NCBI RefSeq assembly: GCF_013283195.1
Contig: NZ_JABEKT010000001.1
Span: forward strand, 2,080,509-2,144,508
DNA from: Ensifer adhaerens
GTDB lineage: Bacteria > Pseudomonadota > Alphaproteobacteria > Rhizobiales > Rhizobiaceae
Reading direction: 5' to 3'
DNA length: 64,000 nucleotides
Positions 2,660-24,055 of this stretch are shown here, piece by piece. Under the pieces are notes generated by a model. The model was given only the letters and a program-made list of their open reading frames with translations, had not been told where the DNA came from and searched no databases. The stretch's first letter is position 1. Each line of letters starts with the position of its first letter. A program made the position numbers and the translations under genes.

Positions 2660-3065
2660 CCGGCACCTCCAACACCGCCGAACACTTGGCAGCGCAACAC
2701 GTCCTTCAGAATGCGCGAAGGGCGTTGTGGCGCTCCATGCATTGACTCAAACTTCCGAAGACCCGATTCGATCCTGGAACCACGCAATAATTTTTGAGCG
2801 CGCTTGTCTGGAGGATACCCTGCCAAGCCGGCGCTGGTGCCGGCCTTGTCCTTATTCATTGCTGAAAGACTGGCACCGTTACTCAGATTACCATCGATCC
2901 TGCCGCCGTGTGCGGCGGAGTCGATAAACATTCGCTACAGTCTGCAATACTGCCCGGCTTGTGGCCGTTCCCGGCGAAACTGTATCCTTGCCAAAGGATT
3001 AGGCGCCCGCTGGGTTACCAAAATATAAACGCAGTATGCACCCGCGCCAAAAAGGTGCGCAATGC
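2660..3065. other. Intergenic region, 406 nt
   Basis: No gene that I can support. The frames crossing it have no recognisable domain and no good ribosome site. Two GC-rich hairpins are visible: AAGCCGGC with GCCGGCC around 2825-2845 (loop GCTGGT), and CCGCCG-TGTG-CGGCGG around 2902-2918. The region must hold the promoter of the patatin-like gene on the minus strand and probably the end of the hisI transcript. A small RNA is possible but nothing here proves one. Confidence 0.4.
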
Positions 3066-3518
3066 TTAATTTTTGTCATAAACCTTGTTCGGGTCGAAAT
3101 GCTGATGATCGTCCGTGATCGTGACGGTCGCACGACCCTGCTCGACACCGACCGTGCGATAGAAGCAGGAGCGGCGGCCGGTGTGGCAGGTTGCATCGTG
3201 CCCGGCGACCGAGACCTTCAGCCAGATGGCGTCCTGGTCGCAATCGGTGCGAATTTCCTTCACCGTCTGCAAATTGCCGGAGCTTTCGCCCTTCTTCCAC
3301 AGGCTCTTGCGGGAGCGGCTGTAATAGTGGGCGACACCAGTCTCGATCGTCAGCGCCAGTGCTTCGGCGTTCATGTGCGCGACCATCAGCAACTCGCCGT
3401 CGCGCGCATCGGTCACGACTGCCGTGATCAGGCCCTTGTCATCGAAGCGGGGTGTGAAGGCCGGACCGGATTCCAGTTCGGCCTTGTTGGAAGAGGGGGT
3501 CTCGAAGGTCAGCGTCAT
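3066..3518 (-). CDS. hisI: Phosphoribosyl-AMP cyclohydrolase
   Basis: HisI opens the adenine ring of phosphoribosyl-AMP in the third step of histidine synthesis. The 150-residue protein carries the metal-binding TDCDQDA motif (Asp92, Cys93, Asp94, Asp96) and the CHTG segment with Cys111 and His112, followed by Cys118. It is the stand-alone form: the HisE pyrophosphohydrolase domain found in enterobacterial fusions is absent, as is usual in alphaproteobacteria. The ATG at 3518 has GGAG a few bases upstream. An open upstream extension to 3668 runs into folE and is rejected. It lies 23 nt downstream of folE in the same direction, so the two are probably co-transcribed. Confidence 0.95.
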
Positions 3519-3541
3519 CGAAGGCTCCGTTGATTGGAGCC

Positions 3542-4159
3542 TTACTTGAAGCCCCGCAGCATCGTCATGAAACGGGCCTGTTCGGCCGGTTCGGTCTGGA
3601 ACGTACCCGTAAATGTGGTGGTCAGTGTTGTCGAGCCTTGCTTCTGAACGCCGCGCATCGCCATGCACATATGCTCGGCCTCGATCATCACCGCGACGCC
3701 GCGTGGGGCCAGCGTTTCATCGATCACCCGGGCGATCTGCGCCGTCATCGATTCCTGCGTCTGCAGCCGACGTCCATAGATGTCGACCACGCGGGCGATC
3801 TTGGAGAGACCCAGTACTCTTCCGTTGGGCAGATAGGCGACGTGCGCCTTGCCGATGATCGGCACCATATGGTGTTCGCAATGGGAGTAGAACGGGATGT
3901 CCTTGACCAGCACCATGTCGTCATAGCCGGCAACCTCCTCGAAGGTCCGGCCGAGCACGTCTTCGGCTGCAAGATCATAGCCGCTGAAAAGCTCGCGGTA
4001 GGACTTGGCCACGCGTGCCGGTGTATCCAGCAGGCCTTCGCGGCTCGGATCGTCGCCGGCCCAGCGAAGCAGCACGCGCACGGCGTCCTCGGCTTCCTTC
4101 TGCGTCGGCCGGTCGCTCGCATTGTCGAGCACGGGGAAATTCTTCACTATGGCATCCAT
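3542..4159 (-). CDS. folE: GTP cyclohydrolase I
   Basis: FolE converts GTP to 7,8-dihydroneopterin triphosphate, the entry reaction of tetrahydrofolate synthesis. The 205-residue product has the zinc ligands Cys94 and His97 in the SHCEHH motif and Cys165 in [11 protein letters not shown]. The GRRLQTQE segment around 129-136 and the C-terminal STTLTT stretch are also family hallmarks. The ATG at 4159 follows AGAGG at proper spacing; a TTG at 4177 is a weaker alternative. It is the upstream gene of a probable folE-hisI pair on the minus strand, divergent from the Fe-S scaffold gene at 4502. Confidence 0.95.
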
Positions 4160-4501
4160 AATGGCCTCTTTGCGCAATACGGGGATTGCTTGACGTTTTA
4201 TCTTTCGGACAACTCGCCACTGGCCATTCGCCTAACCCTGCAGGCTTGGGTTCCGTCGGCGGGCTCCGGGGCTTTCTGGTCCTTGCTTAGCAGTGCAATG
4301 GACCGTCCGGCACGGTTTCCCAAACAACAGGCGACATTTGGTCCTCTTGCGGAACTGTCGCCCCAACACGACATAGCATATAGTATGGTGCCATAGAGAT
4401 GAAAGAGGCCGAGGGGACTGCGTCGTGCTTTTTTCCTGCCTACAGGAGAAAATCATGCGCCGATCACCCAAAACCGCGAAAAATCAGCCGGAACGCGTCA
4501 C
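4160..4501. other. Divergent intergenic region with a possible leader ORF
   Basis: This 342-nt spacer separates folE (minus) from the Fe-S scaffold gene (plus) and must hold both promoters. Its last part contains a strong ribosome site (AGGAGAAAA) followed by an ATG at 4455 that opens a very short frame ending at 4505, described separately. I found no tRNA and no clear intrinsic terminator here. Confidence 0.4.
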
Positions 4502-4505
4502 ATGA
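4455..4505 (+). CDS. Candidate 16-codon leader ORF coupled to the Fe-S scaffold gene
   Basis: A short frame, MRRSPKTAKNQPERVT, starts at an ATG placed 4-5 bases after AGGAGAAAA, the best ribosome site in this region. Its TGA (4503-4505) overlaps the ATG of the downstream scaffold gene (4502) in an ATGA arrangement. The scaffold start itself has only a weak site (GGAA). This looks like translational coupling through a leader peptide. Whether it is translated is inference; the peptide is basic and resembles nothing I recognise. Confidence 0.35.
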   Translation: MRRSPKTAKNQPERVT

Positions 4506-4948
4506 TGGATGACATCTACAACAATCGTATTCTCGACTTCGCCGGCAATATCCCGCGCATCGGGATTCTCGAAAATGCCGATGCCGAAGCAGTGGCCCAT
4601 TCGAAACTCTGTGGCTCGAAAGTGCGGATCTGGTTGAAGATGGACGGCGACGTGGTCACGGATTTTGCCCACGACGTGAAGGCATGCGCGCTCGGTCAAG
4701 CATCGTCTTCGATCATGGCGCGCCATGTGGTCGGCGCACAGGCGAGCGAAATCCGCCAGGCGCGCGACGAGATGCTGGCGATGCTCAAAGCCGACGGCGA
4801 AGGCCCCACGGGCCGTTTCGAGGATATGCGCTTCCTCAGACCTGTGAAGGACTACAAGGCCCGCCATGCATCGACCATGCTCACCTTCGATGCTGTCGTC
4901 GATGCGATCGGCCAGATCGAGGCCAGGCGTCTGGCAACGGCCGTTTGA
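4502..4948 (+). CDS. NifU/IscU-like iron-sulfur cluster scaffold protein
   Basis: A 148-residue protein of the NifU N-terminal/IscU family, which assembles Fe-S clusters for transfer to apoproteins. Two expected cysteines are present: Cys37 in KLCGSK and Cys62 in ACALGQASSS. The third, normally in an RxxCA context near residue 106 of IscU, is not: the equivalent stretch reads RHAST (residues 121-125). No cysteine desulfurase or isc/suf genes are nearby. It overlaps a possible leader ORF by four bases and is followed 3 nt later by yidD, so the downstream genes are probably in one operon. ATG codons at 4502 and 4505 are both possible starts. Confidence 0.8.
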   Translation: MMDDIYNNRILDFAGNIPRIGILENADAEAVAHSKLCGSKVRIWLKMDGDVVTDFAHDVKACALGQASSSIMARHVVGAQASEIRQARDEMLAMLKADGEGPTGRFEDMRFLRPVKDYKARHASTMLTFDAVVDAIGQIEARRLATAV

Positions 4949-18286: not shown

Positions 18287-19729
18287 ATGGATGCGCGTAC
18301 CGAAACACGGCAGGTTCCGCTGTGTGTCGACCTGGACGGCACATTGCTGGCCGCCGATACGCTATGGGAAGGCGCCGCGATCATTCTGCTGCGCAACCCG
18401 CTGATGCTTGTGCCGATGCTCATGTGGTTGTGGCAGGGCAAGGCACGCCTGAAACATGAGGTTGCCCTGCGCTCGGGCCGAAAGGCGGAGGACTGGCCGT
18501 ACCGCCAGGCCGTCCTGGACCGCCTGTCGGCCGAACGTGCCGACGGACGCGAGATTGTGCTGGTGACCGGCGCGGCAGCTTCCGTCGCCCAGGACGTCAC
18601 AGCACATGTTGGCCTCTTTGCGTCGATCATGCATTCATCAGAGACACTCAACATGACGAGCAGCCGGAAGCGTGACGCGCTGGTCGAACGCTTCGGCAAA
18701 GGCGGTTTCGACTATATGGGCAACAGCCGCGACGACATCGCGGTTTTCGAAGTTGCGCGCCGGGCGATCGTCGTGGCACCCGATGCGGCCGCCGAGAAAT
18801 GGCGCCGCAACCACGACGCCGAGAAGCTCGACACCGGCAAGGTCAGCATGCTTGCCCCGCTGAAGTCGATCCGGGTTCATCAGTGGGCGAAGAACGTGCT
18901 GATCGGCGTGCCGATGATCCTCAATCACGAAGTGCTGCATCTCGATGCGCTGCTGAGCGTCACAATTGCATTCTTCGCGTTCAGCTTCCTCGCCTCCGCT
19001 GTCTACGTGATCAACGATCTGTCCGATCTCGCGAACGACCGGCGGCACGCAAAGAAGCGCAACCGGCCGCTGGCCAGCGGTCAGATGTCGGTGCCGACAG
19101 CATTGATGCTGGCAGTCTGCCTGATCCTCGCCTCGGTTTCGCTGACCTTTCTGCTTCCCTGGAAATTTGCCTGCGTACTCGCTTTTTATGCCTGCGCGAC
19201 GACGGCTTACACCTTCGTGCTCAAGCGCAAGCTTCTCGTCGACGTCTTCACGCTCGCCGGCCTCTATACCACCCGTATCGTCGCCGGCGCCGCTGCGACC
19301 GGAACGGAGCTCTCCTTCTGGCTGGTGTCCTTTGCGATCTTCTTCTTCCTGAGCCTGGCGCTGGTGAAGCGCTACGTTGAACTGCATGAATTCGACGACA
19401 AGGATGGTGGCGCCGTTCCTGGCCGTGGTTACCTCGCGGTCGATTTCGAAATGGTCGGGCAGGCAGGCGTGGCCTCAGCCTTCACCTCGGCCCTGGTGCT
19501 TGCGCTCTATGTGCACAGCAAGGAACTGCAGGAAATGTATACGACGCCGTGGGCGTTGTGGCCGCTCTGCCCGCTGGTGCTCTATATGCTGTTGCGAATC
19601 TGGATGCTTGCACGTCGTGGCATGCTGCACGAGGATCCTGTCGTTTTCATCATGCGCGACTGGCGCAGCCAGCTGACCATGCTGGTCGGGGCGTTACTCA
19701 TCCTTTTCGGAGCTGTCGGGCCGCAATGA
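18287..19729 (+). CDS. HAD phosphatase-UbiA phosphoribosyltransferase fusion (DPPR synthase-like)
   Basis: A 480-residue two-domain protein. Residues 1 to about 185 form a HAD phosphatase: DLDGT with Asp15 and Asp17, the VLVTGAAAS motif II near 91-99, and GNSRDD near 145-150. Residues about 190-480 form a UbiA prenyltransferase with multiple membrane helices and the motif N-D-x2-D-x3-D-x5-K-x2-RP (Asn243, Asp244, Asp247, Asp251, Lys257, Arg260). IRVHQWAKNVLIG matches the start of Rv3806c-type 5-phospho-ribose-1-diphosphate:decaprenyl-phosphate phosphoribosyltransferases. The predicted pair of steps is transfer of phosphoribose to a polyprenyl phosphate, then removal of the 5-phosphate by the fused HAD. 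The gene opens a five-gene operon; its stop overlaps the next start (ATGA). Confidence 0.88.
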   Translation: MDARTETRQVPLCVDLDGTLLAADTLWEGAAIILLRNPLMLVPMLMWLWQGKARLKHEVALRSGRKAEDWPYRQAVLDRLSAERADGREIVLVTGAAASVAQDVTAHVGLFASIMHSSETLNMTSSRKRDALVERFGKGGFDYMGNSRDDIAVFEVARRAIVVAPDAAAEKWRRNHDAEKLDTGKVSMLAPLKSIRVHQWAKNVLIGVPMILNHEVLHLDALLSVTIAFFAFSFLASAVYVINDLSDLANDRRHAKKRNRPLASGQMSVPTALMLAVCLILASVSLTFLLPWKFACVLAFYACATTAYTFVLKRKLLVDVFTLAGLYTTRIVAGAAATGTELSFWLVSFAIFFFLSLALVKRYVELHEFDDKDGGAVPGRGYLAVDFEMVGQAGVASAFTSALVLALYVHSKELQEMYTTPWALWPLCPLVLYMLLRIWMLARRGMLHEDPVVFIMRDWRSQLTMLVGALLILFGAVGPQ

Positions 19730-21048
19730 ACACGCAAGATTACGAAAGCTGGGGCCGGCTCGATCGCCGGCCGCGGCAGGGCATTTCGCCGGACGACTAC
19801 GAAGATCGCATAGGTTCGATCGAGCCGGAGACGTTCCTCCCGTTCGGCAACGGTCGCAGCTATGGCGACAGCTGCCACAACGATCTGGGCGTACTGATCG
19901 ACAATCGCCGCCACGCCCGCATACTCGCGTTCGACCCCGGCACCGGCATGATGACCTGCGAGGCGGGCATTACCCTTGGCGACGTTCTTGCACGTGCCAT
20001 TCCCCATCGTTTCTTTCTTCCGGTGACGCCCGGCACGGCTTTCGTCACGATCGGCGGCGCGCTTGCCAACGATGTTCACGGCAAGAACCATCATGCGCGG
20101 GGAACCTTCGGCAATCACGTCACCGGCTTCACGCTTTTGCGGTCCAATGGCGAACGCTTGACCTGCACGCCACAGGAAAGCCCGGAGCTGTTTGCAGCCA
20201 CGATCGGCGGCATGGGGCTGACCGGTTTGATCCTGACCGTGAGCCTTCGTCTCAACAAAGTGCCGTCGCCACATGTTCAGCAGCACGCCATTCGTTTCAA
20301 CAGTCTCGACGAATACTTCGGTCTGGTCGACGGCGTCGACGAGGAGCATGAATACTCCGTCGCCTGGATCGACCAGCTTGCAACCGGACGGCGCATGGGC
20401 CGTGGGGTCCTGCTCGCCGGGGATCATGCGGATGGCTCGTGCGAGTTTCCGGACATGCCGAAAGGCATGAAACTCTCGGTGCCGTTCTCGCCACCTTTCA
20501 ACCTTCTCAACTTCGCGACGCTCAAGGCGTTCAACGAATACTATTTCCGCAAGGAGAAGCCGGGCGAAACCGTTTCGACGGTGCCGTGGACGTCCTACTT
20601 CTATCCGCTCGATGCCATCGGCGCGTGGAACAGGCTTTACGGTCCCAAGGGGCTCTATCAGCACCAGAGCGTCTACCCTACCGAGAATGCCCGGGAAATC
20701 ACTGCGATCCTGATGGACACCGCGCGTCGTGCCGGACATGCATCCTTCCTCACGGTGTTGAAGCGCTTTGGGGACGTCGCCTCGCGCGGCCTGCTGTCGT
20801 TTCCCCGGCCTGGTTTTACCTTGACGCTCGACTTCGCCAATCAGGGTGAACGGACGGTAAAGCTGCTGGACCGCTTGGACGCGATCGTTGTCGAAGCCGG
20901 GGGCGCGATCAATCCTTACAAGGATGCGCGCATGAGCTCACAAGTCTTTGAAAAGTCTTTCACTTCTTGGCGATCGCTCGAGGCGTTGCGCGATCCGGCG
21001 CTGACGTCGAACTTCTGGCGCCGCACCGCGTTGGCTTTGTCAAAATGA
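19726..21048 (+). CDS. DprE1-like FAD-linked oxidase (polyprenylphosphoryl-ribose oxidase)
   Basis: A 440-residue FAD-dependent oxidase of the vanillyl-alcohol oxidase fold. The FAD-binding part includes PFGNGRSYGDSC (40-50), PVTPGTAFVTIGG (99-111) and NDVHGKNHHARGTFGNHV (115-132), which closely matches mycobacterial DprE1. The C-terminal substrate domain has LKRFG (345-349), SFPRPGFTLTLDF (358-370) and the conserved Lys399 in NPYKDAR. DprE1 oxidises the 2'-hydroxyl of decaprenylphosphoryl-ribose to a ketone. By my recollected alignment the DprE1 cysteine attacked by benzothiazinones corresponds here to Thr367. Start overlaps the UbiA stop. The usual partner reductase DprE2 is not recognisable next to it. 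Confidence 0.85.
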   Translation: MNTQDYESWGRLDRRPRQGISPDDYEDRIGSIEPETFLPFGNGRSYGDSCHNDLGVLIDNRRHARILAFDPGTGMMTCEAGITLGDVLARAIPHRFFLPVTPGTAFVTIGGALANDVHGKNHHARGTFGNHVTGFTLLRSNGERLTCTPQESPELFAATIGGMGLTGLILTVSLRLNKVPSPHVQQHAIRFNSLDEYFGLVDGVDEEHEYSVAWIDQLATGRRMGRGVLLAGDHADGSCEFPDMPKGMKLSVPFSPPFNLLNFATLKAFNEYYFRKEKPGETVSTVPWTSYFYPLDAIGAWNRLYGPKGLYQHQSVYPTENAREITAILMDTARRAGHASFLTVLKRFGDVASRGLLSFPRPGFTLTLDFANQGERTVKLLDRLDAIVVEAGGAINPYKDARMSSQVFEKSFTSWRSLEALRDPALTSNFWRRTALALSK

Positions 21049-21141
21049 GAATGCGGACAAATTTATTAAATTAAATGCGCGAACTTCACGGAATATGCGC
21101 CTCTTGCGTGTAGTTCATTTCCCGGGACTGGGAGTAAAACT
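21049..21141. other. AT-rich 93-nt spacer inside the lipid-linked sugar operon
   Basis: Unlike the other junctions of the operon, which overlap or nearly touch, the DprE1-like and small membrane protein genes are separated by 93 nt, including ATTTATTAAATTAAATG. It could hold a secondary promoter or processing site. No hairpin with a T-run is seen. Confidence 0.35.
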
Positions 21142-21582
21142 ATGAAATATATTCCATTCATTCTCTTCACTGTGCTGACCAATGCGGCCGCACAGCTGAT
21201 GCTGAAGCAGGGCATGATGTCGCTCGGGCCGATCTCGATGACGGCAGAGACGGCGATCGTTCGCCTGTTCCAGATCGTTTTCAATCCATGGGTCTTTGCG
21301 GGGCTCGCGACCTTCGTCATCTCCATGGCATCGCATCTCTACGTGCTGTCGAAGGTGGAGCTTTCCTTCGCCTATCCGTTCCTGAGCCTGGCCTACGTGG
21401 CGGTCGCGATCTTCGCCTACTTTGTTTTCCGCGAGGATCTCAATGCCTGGCGCATCGCCGGCATCGCGCTCATCTGCGTCGGAACGGTCCTGATCGCCCA
21501 GTCGGGCATGTCTTCCCATAGCGACGAAACGCCGGCCGATGCGGCTGGAGCAAGAACAGCAGATTTCGGGAGCAAGTCATGA
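21142..21582 (+). CDS. Small multidrug resistance/EamA-like membrane protein (ArnF-like)
   Basis: A 146-residue four-helix membrane protein of the SMR/EamA superfamily. The N-terminus YIPFILFTVLTNAAAQLMLKQGM has the typical first helix with a polar residue, and the helices near residues 50-70, 75-95 and 100-118 contain ELSFAYPFLSLAYVAVAIFAYFVFREDL and a G-I-A-L-I-C-V-G-T-V-L end, as in ArnE/ArnF and other lipid-linked sugar flippase subunits. The C-terminal 25 residues are polar. Its placement between sugar-modifying genes favours a transport or flipping role over drug export. Its stop overlaps the SDR start (ATGA). Confidence 0.75.
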   Translation: MKYIPFILFTVLTNAAAQLMLKQGMMSLGPISMTAETAIVRLFQIVFNPWVFAGLATFVISMASHLYVLSKVELSFAYPFLSLAYVAVAIFAYFVFREDLNAWRIAGIALICVGTVLIAQSGMSSHSDETPADAAGARTADFGSKS

Positions 21583-22589
21583 AGCATATTATCTTTGGTG
21601 GCGACGGGTTCGTCGGGCGGCATCTGGCGCAGCGCCTCGTTCAGGACGGCGAAGATGTCGTCGTCGCCGATATCGTCAAATCCGATCTGCCGCACTACAG
21701 CCGCGCGCGCTTCGTCCATTGCGACGTGACGCAGGTGAGCGATGTGCTGAAGGTCGGCATCGGTCCGGACGACATGGTCTACAACATGGCGGCCAAGATG
21801 CTGTCGCCGTTGCAGATCCGCTCGAAGCGTTGGGATTTCTTCTGGCCGGTCAACTACTACGGCGCCGAGAACATCATGAAGGCCATGGGTGTAGCGAACG
21901 CCTCGCGCCTCGTTCAGTTCACCACCGACATGATCTATGGCCACACGGTTCAGTCACCGCAGACCGAGGACCATCCCGCAAAGCCGCTCGGCGAGTACGG
22001 AAAGTCGAAGTGGGCGACAGAACAACTGGCCGTGCAATGGCGCAAGCAGGGCATGAGCATCTCGATCTTCCGCCCGCGCCTGATCATCGGCCCCGGTCGT
22101 CTCGGCATTCTCGAAAAACTGTTCAAGCTGATCGACATGAACCTGCCGGTGCCGATGATCGGTTCTGGCAAGGTGCCATACCAGTTCATCTCGGTGTTCG
22201 ATTGCGCCGAAGCGGCGCGGCTTGCCTGGAAAGGCGGTGTGCCCAATGAGGCCTACAACCTCGGCTCCGACAATCCGCCATCGGTTCGCGAACTGCTCGG
22301 CAACCTGATCAAGCACGCCGGCTCAAAGTCCTTCCTGCTGCCGACGCCTGCCTTTGCGGTCAAGCAGACGCTTGCACTCTTCGATCTGATCAACAAACCG
22401 ATCATGGATCCGGAGCAGTACCTGATTGCCGACGAACTGTGCGTGCGCGAGACGGGCAAGCTGAAGCATCAGCTCGGCTGGCGGCCGGAGTTCAACGACG
22501 GCGATATGCTGGTTGCCGCCTATGACGAATATCGGGCCAAGAAGTCCGGTGCCACGATGCAAAACGCCGCTGCCGTACCGGCCGAGTGA
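21579..22589 (+). CDS. Extended SDR, NAD-dependent epimerase/dehydratase family
   Basis: A 336-residue extended short-chain dehydrogenase. The Rossmann motif GGDGFVG is at residues 7-13, the DV/NMAAK segment near 65, and the catalytic YGKSK (Tyr-x3-Lys) near 144-148, followed by the substrate-binding FRPRLIIGPGR and GSGKVPYQF. The fold is that of UDP-sugar epimerases and dehydratases, not the short classical DprE2 reductase of mycobacteria. Possible roles are reduction or epimerisation of a 2-keto pentose or an unrelated nucleotide sugar. The gene overlaps the membrane protein stop and ends just before the aminotransferase. Confidence 0.82.
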   Translation: MKHIIFGGDGFVGRHLAQRLVQDGEDVVVADIVKSDLPHYSRARFVHCDVTQVSDVLKVGIGPDDMVYNMAAKMLSPLQIRSKRWDFFWPVNYYGAENIMKAMGVANASRLVQFTTDMIYGHTVQSPQTEDHPAKPLGEYGKSKWATEQLAVQWRKQGMSISIFRPRLIIGPGRLGILEKLFKLIDMNLPVPMIGSGKVPYQFISVFDCAEAARLAWKGGVPNEAYNLGSDNPPSVRELLGNLIKHAGSKSFLLPTPAFAVKQTLALFDLINKPIMDPEQYLIADELCVRETGKLKHQLGWRPEFNDGDMLVAAYDEYRAKKSGATMQNAAAVPAE

Positions 22590-22600
22590 GGGGAATGACC

Positions 22601-24055
22601 ATGCTGGATAGACCGAACCGCACAGCCGTCTCGGCACCGTCGCAAGAAGGTGGCGTCGCAAGGCCAAACCTGCTCACGGTCGAGCAGGCGAAAGCCATGT
22701 CGATCGGCGATATCACCACGGCCTTCAAGGACCACCTCAATCCAGGCCAGTTGCACTTCATGAAGCTGCTCGGTTTTCACAAGGTGAAGATCGAAAGCGC
22801 CGAGGGCATGTATTACACCGACCAGAACGGCCGGAAGATCCTCGATTTCTTCGGCGGCTTCGGCTCGCTGGCCTTTGGCCACAACCACCCGCGCATTCTC
22901 GAAGCGCGTCAGAAGTTCCAGGACGAGAAGCGCCACGAGATCGCCATCGCCTTCATGTCGCAATATGCCGCAGCGCTCGCCAAGAACATCGCAGCCTGCT
23001 CGCCCGGTGACCTCGATATGGTCTTCCTCGGGTCGTCCGGTTCCGAGGCGATGGAGGCAGCGATCAAGCTTGCCGAACGCGCCGCCGGCCCGAAGCGACC
23101 GAAGGTCGTCTATGCGGAAAATTCTTTCCACGGCAAGACCAAGGGGGTGCTTGCCATCACCGACGGGCAACTCTACCGCGCCGATTTCAAGCTCACTGAC
23201 AACACGGTGCGTGTTCCCTTCGCTGATATCGCGGCCGTGGAGAAAGCCTTCCAGTCCGATCCGGAGATCGGGGTGATCGTGCTGGAGACCATCCAGGGCG
23301 GCGGCGGCATCATCCAGGCACCGGCCGAATACTGGCAGCAGCTTCGCGCTCTGTGCGATCGCTATGGCGTTCTGTGGGTCGCGGACGAAGTGCAATGCGG
23401 TTATGGCCGCTCGGGCCGCTTCTATGCCTTCGAGCACTACGGCGTCGTGCCTGACGTTACCGCTCTCGCCAAGTCGCTCGGCGCTGGCAAGGCGGCGGTT
23501 GGCGCGATGATCGCGCGGCGCGAAGTCTACATGAAAGCCTATGGCACATCGAAGACGGCGATGATCCACGCCATGGCGACGTTCGGCGGCATGGGTGAAG
23601 CCTGCGTCACAGCGATCGAGGGCATCAACGTGCTCTACGACGATCATCTGATCGATCGCGCCGCCGACAGCGGCGACTATCTGCTTGAGCGTCTGCAGGC
23701 GTTGAAGGAGAAGTATCCGAAGATCATCAAGGATGTGCGCGGCAAGGGCCTGATGGTTGGCCTGGAGTTCCAGGATTTCAGTCAGACATTGCCGATGGTA
23801 CTGCGTCCCGTGGTTTCCGTGCTCGACGACAAGCTGAAGGGATCGCTCTCGGGCTTCATCGGCGCCTTGCTTCTGCGCGACTACGATGTGCTTGTCGCGT
23901 TTACCGAATACAATCGCAACGTCATCCGCCTTGAGCCGCCGCTGATCTGCGAACGTTCTCATGTCGACCAGTTCATTGCCGCGCTCGACGCGCTCCTGGG
24001 CCGTGGGATCGTGCGTATCGTCAAGGACTTCGTCGGCAGTCAGATCGGCAGCTGA
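22601..24055 (+). CDS. Class III PLP-dependent aminotransferase
   Basis: A 484-residue aminotransferase of the acetylornithine/GABA/putrescine class. PLP-binding hallmarks are SSGSEA (145-150), ADEVQCGYGRSG (261-272) with Asp262, and LAKSLGAGKAAVGA with the Schiff-base Lys291. The N-terminal DHLNPGQLHFMKLLGFHKVKIESAEG and the C-terminal YNRNVIRLEPPL resemble putrescine/lysine-type members. Class III enzymes normally aminate a terminal aldehyde; HpnO of hopanoid synthesis is a precedent for a lipid-linked pentose-derived substrate. The ATG at 22601 follows GAGGGG by seven bases and is preferred over ATG 22595 or GTG 22586. It is the last gene of the five-gene operon. Confidence 0.85.
   Translation: MLDRPNRTAVSAPSQEGGVARPNLLTVEQAKAMSIGDITTAFKDHLNPGQLHFMKLLGFHKVKIESAEGMYYTDQNGRKILDFFGGFGSLAFGHNHPRILEARQKFQDEKRHEIAIAFMSQYAAALAKNIAACSPGDLDMVFLGSSGSEAMEAAIKLAERAAGPKRPKVVYAENSFHGKTKGVLAITDGQLYRADFKLTDNTVRVPFADIAAVEKAFQSDPEIGVIVLETIQGGGGIIQAPAEYWQQLRALCDRYGVLWVADEVQCGYGRSGRFYAFEHYGVVPDVTALAKSLGAGKAAVGAMIARREVYMKAYGTSKTAMIHAMATFGGMGEACVTAIEGINVLYDDHLIDRAADSGDYLLERLQALKEKYPKIIKDVRGKGLMVGLEFQDFSQTLPMVLRPVVSVLDDKLKGSLSGFIGALLLRDYDVLVAFTEYNRNVIRLEPPLICERSHVDQFIAALDALLGRGIVRIVKDFVGSQIGS

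Follow-up and report, generated by a model that had tools for sequence, protein, structure and literature searches.

A 64-kb stretch of the 7.07-Mb genome of Ensifer adhaerens (contig NZ_JABEKT010000001.1; the whole stretch is called the window below) carries an operon of five genes, which encode a HAD-UbiA fusion protein, a DprE1-like FAD oxidase, a small membrane protein of the SMR/ArnF type, an extended short-chain dehydrogenase/reductase (SDR) and a class III pyridoxal phosphate (PLP)-dependent aminotransferase (AT). We found that the five genes are an inherited set, and that the AT branch replaces the arabinose branch of related loci, because oxidases of AT-less genomes adjoin the reductase DprE2 (and usually the membrane protein GtrA), neither of which was found in AT loci. 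The operon very probably constitutes a pathway for a lipid-linked pentofuranose donor and, on balance, we favour the view that it makes an aminated pentofuranose linked to undecaprenyl phosphate and sends it to the periplasm. The gene content, the co-inheritance, the active-site conservation and the branch replacement described here are direct observations, and the GT-C fold of an associated membrane protein family (A3) is a structure prediction.

Distribution and coding capacity of the five-gene set

The survey thresholds were E 1e-90 for the AT, 1e-60 for the SDR and the membrane protein family A4, 1e-40 for the oxidase and 1e-20 for the membrane protein family A3; "not found" means that there was no match at that level. 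Each of the 16 genomes available for the genus, that of the window among them, had an AT ortholog. The gene was also present in 151 of the 297 genomes of the family (63 of 109 genera), a sample of 384 further genomes from the class contained it once, and a single plasmid record among 72,556 carried it (Neorhizobium sp. SOG26, 76%). Among the matches listed, orthologs scored 582 to 1089 bits (a remnant in genome G625 was weaker), against about 180 bits for paralogs. The oxidase was found in 150/151 AT genomes, as opposed to 15/146 without AT.

Two groups of loci were compared (genomes and loci are designated by G and L numbers): 39 loci, chosen along the ranking and not at random, that represent 38 of the family's 151 AT-positive genomes and one genome of another family, and 80 further loci representing the best 80 of 498 AT relatives, mostly of Mesorhizobium (119 AT loci in all). 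Among these 80, the closest relatives of the window AT were those of Ensifer oleiphilus HO-A22 and Sinorhizobium sp. A49 (99% each). All five genes lay together in 35 of the 39 loci and in 78 of the 80, where contig ends truncate the remaining two; such recurrence argues against a chance association. A previous sequence-only reading of the window had named a lack of synteny in related genomes as one of the results that would contradict it; we looked for this and found synteny instead. Identity across the 39 loci was mostly 65-85% for the SMR-type protein, SDR and AT and mostly 45-60% for UbiA and the oxidase. In L074 and L089 the former three stay together while the UbiA and oxidase genes lie elsewhere. 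The only AT genome outside the family, G245 (L059), has the order SMR-SDR-UbiA-oxidase-AT and a UbiA protein of 301 aa without the HAD part.

The fusion protein exceeded the cut-off of the fusion model PRK08238 (577.9 bits; cut-off 351) and matched Pfam UbiA with 92.5 bits, its Pfam HAD score (23.1 bits) lying below the cut-off of 27. Only two solved structures matched strongly, both of them decaprenyl-phosphate phosphoribosyltransferase (best relative 8j8j, E 1e-26). The phosphatase residues D15 and D17 and the UbiA residues N243, D244, D247, D251, R362 and E365 were invariant in all 40 aligned rows, which thus contain the motifs of PPPRS enzymes: the HAD nucleophile Asp, N-D-x2-D-x3-D and R-x2-E. 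According to PMC11127046, ORF15 of Citrobacter, also a HAD-UbiA fusion, makes farnesyl-phosphate ribofuranose from phosphoribosyl pyrophosphate (PRPP) in vitro, including the 5-dephosphorylation; the residues tested there correspond to D15, N243, D244, D247, D251, R362 and E365, although the R and E mutants stayed active. The earlier proposal that the HAD domain supplies the 5-phosphatase is supported by this activity and by the invariance of the tested residues, and we regard the protein as a predicted polyprenyl phosphoribofuranose synthase.

The second protein (Pfam FAD_binding_4, 69.3 bits) had DprE1 as its sole strong match among solved structures (4aut, E 3e-69; next family E 1e-9). It scored 340 bits with the NCBIfam DprE1 equivalog, under the cut-off of 500, as did two DprE2-linked homologs (343.4 and 336.5 bits); therefore, this cut-off does not separate the two branches. 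We label the protein DprE1-like, with a predicted role in the C2 oxidation of lipid-linked ribose. H118 was invariant in 48/48 rows, and K120, K346 and K399 were kept in the window and in all 115 cluster-linked rows (many of them near-copies); we take these four to be FAD/substrate-pocket active-site residues of the DprE1 type.

The small membrane protein matched Pfam EamA (32 bits) and came nearest to ArnF among NCBIfam models, without reaching the cut-offs of ArnF (54.9 bits; cut-off 99) or ArnE (36.1 bits; cut-off 92). The SDR (Pfam Epimerase, 110.8 bits) has intact GxxGxxG and YxxxK motifs, kept in 38/38 rows (Y140, K144). The AT belongs to class III by its Aminotran_3 match (285.8 bits) and its PLP lysine K293, which, like D264, was invariant in 39/39 rows; its best NCBIfam model was PigE (351.9 bits, cut-off 850 missed) and its nearest solved structures were 4ppm, followed by the putrescine aminotransferase 4uox.

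The five gene types, their common direction and two ATGA overlaps, all noted in the sequence-only reading, were borne out by the open reading frames (ORFs) called in the window and by the profile matches (Table 1). The overlaps are at 19726-19729 and 21579-21582. A third junction would be a GTGA overlap at 22586, but only if the AT starts at GTG; the ATG at 22595 is the likelier start, since GGGGA sits just upstream of it. The sole clear intergenic gap (93 bp) precedes the small membrane protein gene. An alpha/beta-hydrolase gene (and parE) flanks the operon on one side and a YceI gene on the other.

Table 1. ORFs of the operon (18287-24055 of the window) and their predicted functions
Predicted product	Position	Strand	Length
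HAD-UbiA fusion, predicted polyprenyl-phosphate phosphoribosyltransferase with its own 5-phosphatase (PPPRS type)	18287..19729	+	480 aa
DprE1-like FAD oxidase, predicted C2 oxidation of lipid-linked ribose	19726..21048	+	440 aa
ArnE/ArnF-like half-size EamA/SMR membrane protein, predicted flippase	21142..21582	+	146 aa
Extended SDR, predicted epimerase or reductase of lipid-linked pentose	21579..22589	+	336 aa
Class III PLP aminotransferase (AT), predicted to aminate keto-pentose	22595..24055 (or from GTG 22586)	+	486 or 489 aa

Two other interpretations of the SDR and AT genes were rejected. In several genomes the AT is covered by an open frame of some 780-870 aa, which had suggested an SDR-AT fusion; inspection of the long frame in L061 placed the two genes in different frames, and the other loci of the group of 39 with both genes gave separate matches. 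Assignment of the window genes to the hopanoid route (AT as HpnO, SDR as HpnA) failed on the score of the SDR with the HpnA model (57 bits; cut-off 367.65), and UbiA and DprE1 have no place in that route.

Alternative branches behind the DprE1-like oxidase

We compared 14 of the 15 oxidase-positive, AT-less genomes of the family (G591 was left out), ten with DprE2 and four with orphan oxidases. In all ten non-orphan loci the oxidase lies beside a DprE2-like classical SDR, and in seven of them (L220-L226) the gene order is UbiA, GtrA, oxidase, DprE2. GtrA occurs in 8/10 of these loci and the SMR-type protein in none, whereas the latter is present in 118/119 AT loci, the exception (L152) being cut. 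Searches of the 119 AT loci by tblastn, using two queries for DprE2 and three for GtrA, found neither gene, and DprE2 was not found in the window with two DprE2-like queries. These observations fit a swap at the DprE1 ketone, i.e. reduction by DprE2 with export by GtrA in one branch, and amination by the AT, together with the SDR and ArnF-like export, in the other. The SMR/ArnF-like protein is a predicted candidate flippase: the sequence-only reading had given it this role, and its type does change with the branch, as that of a flippase might.

In the phylogeny of 58 oxidases all 38 AT-linked family rows fall into one clade (100/99), which also takes in the orphans (nested beside the window, 100/97) and the unlinked copy of G461. 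The clade excludes the DprE2-linked rows, as well as four further oxidases that AT genomes carry at unlinked sites. The G245 oxidase groups with the DprE2-linked rows on a long branch. The orphans (L200-L203), from four genomes of a single genus (g338), occupy the locus parE-hydrolase-oxidase-YceI, from which UbiA, SMR, SDR and AT are missing in 4/4; no HAD-UbiA match at E 1e-10 was found in three of the four genomes, and G460 has one (38%) elsewhere. Across the 115 cluster-linked rows 59 oxidase sites are invariant. The orphans change 4 to 8 of these, with K120 and K346 altered in 4/4 and K399 in 2/4, and eight other unlinked or DprE2-linked oxidases (40-62% identity) change 0 to 5, the lysines never.

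The sequence-only reading had the SDR and the AT jointly replacing the missing DprE2. The absence of DprE2 near the operon, where SDR and AT are found instead, and the contrast with AT-less loci uphold the replacement, although the two genes are not always inherited as a pair. At E 1e-60 the SDR was found in 147 of the 297 family genomes, all 147 of them AT-positive, and had no match in four of the 151 AT genomes. One of these is G503, where the AT match begins at base 42 of the contig, and another is G625, in which a UbiA piece is joined to an AT piece (L231:7898-9411) with no N at the junction, the intervening genes and the oxidase missing and an intact A4 gene beside it, the result of either a deletion or a misassembly. 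In the remaining two, G434 (L084) and G604 (L229), no SDR lies between SMR and AT, and UbiA, oxidase, SMR, AT and A4 are kept; G604 is 79% complete, but its operon locus is whole in L229. Since both have lost the SDR and keep the rest, SDR and AT are not one inseparable substitute for DprE2, and these genomes, a natural SDR knockout, point to an AT that acts on the oxidase product itself. G535 (L230), the third genome of their genus, has the SDR.

The sequence-only reading was largely right, with the action of oxidase and AT on the lipid-linked sugar still a prediction, but it had missed the periplasmic transferase that the pathway needs. Candidates for this role are two membrane protein families, A3 and A4: at least one of them was found in 150 of 151 AT genomes (both in nine), against 3 of 146 without AT, the only AT genome with neither being G651 (81% complete). 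A3 is encoded directly behind the AT in 19/39 loci, and its predicted model has a GT-C glycosyltransferase fold, nearest to ArnT, which makes it a candidate GT-C transferase of the lipid-linked sugar; L141 (cut) and L112, whose chosen frame is interrupted by a stop close to its end, are left out of the A3 alignment. The window genome has an unlinked A4 gene (G000:C1:2292599-2294320), for which a single-sequence fold model gave no usable fold (pLDDT 42.7). The candidate genes are unlinked in Ensifer and adjacent to the operon in Mesorhizobium.

Further genes adjoin some of these clusters. In L061, L065, L067 and L085 a gene of the FkbM-type methyltransferase family (Pfam match on the L067 copy) lies beside A3 and possibly modifies the same glycan. 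The rearranged cluster of L059 is accompanied by a 573-aa membrane protein without a Pfam match (2864-4582, minus strand), possibly a third transferase type. Two or three tandem A4-related proteins, perhaps successive arabinosyltransferases, are encoded behind UbiA-GtrA-DprE1-DprE2 at L222:12310-17110, L224:12340-15617 and L226:1970-5179. An arylsulfotransferase-like protein of 837 aa is encoded beside the UbiA-DprE1-DprE2 set of L204 (10757-13267, minus strand).

Proposed pathway and competing explanations

In the pathway that we propose, the HAD-UbiA protein would make polyprenyl-phosphate ribose (ribofuranose) from PRPP and the DprE1-like oxidase would convert it to the 2-keto sugar, whose ketone, instead of being reduced by DprE2, would be aminated by the AT to give a 2-amino-2-deoxy-pentofuranosyl lipid. 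The SDR would set a further stereocentre (as a C3 epimerase, cf. Citrobacter ORF13) or complete the redox chemistry, the ArnF-like protein would flip the lipid-linked sugar, and an unlinked or adjacent A3/A4 membrane protein would move it onto an envelope glycan. We infer each of these reactions, as well as the amination and its site, the direction of flipping, the acceptor glycan and the carrier. The lipid-linked pentose probably carries an amino group; C2 is a possible site for it, on which we would not yet rely.

Several points weigh against this pathway. The usual substrates of class III aminotransferases are terminal amines or aldehydes and not sugar ring ketones, and of the nearest characterised relatives of the AT, PigE acts on an alkanal and the other on putrescine. 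The SDR is kept in 147/151 AT genomes, which is at odds with an amination that needs no SDR, and the AT-positive count includes G625, where a piece of UbiA joined to a piece of AT is all that is left. The search for DprE2 covered about 10 kb around the operon. In a separate UbiA locus of the AT-less genome G681 (L228), the UbiA gene is followed in one row by genes for a membrane protein of 570 aa and for a weak relative of SMR (28% identity, 46 bits); since UbiA is paired there with an SMR relative without AT, an SMR-type protein is no proof of an amino sugar, and this locus slightly lowered our estimate for the amino group. The numbers of changed oxidase sites overlap (4 to 8 in orphans, 0 to 5 in other copies), yet, as only the four orphans show lysine changes, the lysine losses are limited to genomes without the other operon genes. 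In a leave-one-out count, 13 sites that are invariant in the other rows are changed in the oxidase of G245, its lysines being kept. Moreover, the oxidase gene can outlive the pathway, given that the orphans keep open frames. In the literature searched, with subscription papers mostly outside it, no amino-pentofuranose glycan of these bacteria was found.

The three-gene row of L228 (5346-8879) has a divergent UbiA, and no oxidase or AT of the operon kind lies nearby; the row is perhaps a plain ribose-type three-component system.

A rather unlikely alternative is that the SDR stands in for DprE2 (or acts as a C3 epimerase, as in Citrobacter O2), which leaves a neutral pentose on the lipid, and that the AT aminates C3 or C5 once the SDR has oxidised the sugar a second time; the result would be an amino-pentose other than a 2-amino sugar. 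The strict inheritance of the SDR with the AT (147/147) is in line with this, as is the general preference of class III enzymes for primary aldehydes. According to PMC11127046, Citrobacter ORF13, an SDR with TGxxGxxG and YxxxK motifs, converts ribose to xylose on the lipid and alone decides between the two sugars in vivo. G434 and G604 argue in the opposite direction: they keep the remaining genes without an SDR match (E 1e-60), which leaves their operons with no maker of a second carbonyl, unless an unrelated SDR elsewhere in these genomes makes it. Serotype O1 appears to have lost ORF13 (PMC11127046), much as the SDR is absent from G434 and G604.

It is distinctly improbable that UbiA, oxidase and SDR yield a lipid with an uncharged pentose such as arabinose, xylose or lyxose, and that the AT aminates something else that is co-regulated, e.g. 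an acceptor lipid. The nearest AT relatives do act on non-sugar substrates, and the SMR relative of L228 adjoins UbiA without AT; against this, the presence of the AT tracks the absence of DprE2 and the change of flippase type, the SMR, SDR and AT genes remain grouped even when those for UbiA and the oxidase are elsewhere (L074, L089), and the closest model of the SMR-type protein is ArnF, which carries an amino-pentose. That envelope and metabolic genes with no functional link have come to lie side by side by accident could be suspected from the genomes in which the oxidase (with UbiA in L089 and L074) is apart from the rest, but this idea is refuted by the synteny of the five genes, which recur even reordered in another family (L059), and by a co-occurrence that holds where the oxidase is unlinked.

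Related systems and biological significance

The closest described counterparts are the three-component systems of Citrobacter youngae O1/O2 (PPPRS, MATE flippase, GT136; Kelly et al. 2024, PMC11127046). They have the same HAD-UbiA architecture and catalytic residues, a logic of flippase and GT-C enzyme like that predicted here, and in O2 an auxiliary SDR that sets the identity of the sugar; they are described without a DprE1-like oxidase or an aminotransferase (the word is absent from the main text), with a MATE instead of an SMR protein and with a GT136 transferase. The UbiA-GtrA-DprE1-DprE2 operons of AT-less family genomes (L220-L226, in part L204-L206) share with the window operon the HAD-UbiA protein and the DprE1-like oxidase, and three of them (L222, L224, L226) also have adjacent A4-related membrane proteins; they differ in having DprE2 and GtrA where the window has SDR, AT and SMR, and their oxidases fall outside the AT-linked clade.

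The mycobacterial pathway to decaprenyl-phosphate arabinose comprises Rv3806c, DprE1, DprE2, Rv3789 and Emb/Aft. In comparison, the window operon has no DprE2 nearby, a fused HAD phosphatase and an added aminotransferase. The Arn pathway (ArnABCDEFT, Und-P-L-Ara4N) resembles our proposal in an amino-pentose on undecaprenyl phosphate, an ArnE/F-type flippase and an ArnT-like transferase fold. Arn builds its amino sugar on UDP, as a pyranose and with another type of aminotransferase, whereas the window operon would start from PRPP and modify a furanose that is already attached to the lipid; membership of the ArnF or ArnT families is not claimed. The comparison with the mycobacterial flippase is uncertain, Rv3789 being assigned to the SMR family by PMC11127046 and otherwise to the GtrA type.

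The sequence-only reading also pointed to Nod-factor arabinosylation in Azorhizobium caulinodans, rightly as far as PMC2443382 goes: noeC, noeH and noeO are similar to the mycobacterial D-arabinose donor genes. The same text places them in a symbiosis operon and mentions no SDR/AT branch, while the window operon lies near parE (the two were compared by description only). Lipid-linked pentofuranose donors are already known (PMC11127046; mycobacterial arabinan). In contrast, the aminotransferase branch appears to be new: no description of it or of the five-gene set was found in the literature searched, within the limits given above.

We are nearly evenly divided about a wider reading, in which about half of the sampled family genomes (Ensifer, Mesorhizobium and their kin) make an undescribed envelope sugar, an amino-pentofuranose on undecaprenyl phosphate, the AT captures the DprE1 ketone ahead of its reduction, two transferase families are interchangeable, genomes without the SDR make a stereochemically different sugar, and the pathway has disappeared from one genus, where an orphan oxidase with a retuned function is left. 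If true, lipid-linked pentofuranoses would extend beyond ribose, xylose and arabinose, with the DprE1 ketone as the branch point to a cationic sugar made on the carrier, and a class III aminotransferase would act on a membrane-bound sugar. The membrane families A3 and A4 would acquire a candidate role, and the alternative gene sets (DprE2/GtrA or SDR/AT/SMR) could serve as a genome marker predicting the sugar. A cell surface charged positively in this way would matter for symbiosis and for how well root-nodule bacteria withstand antimicrobial peptides of the host.

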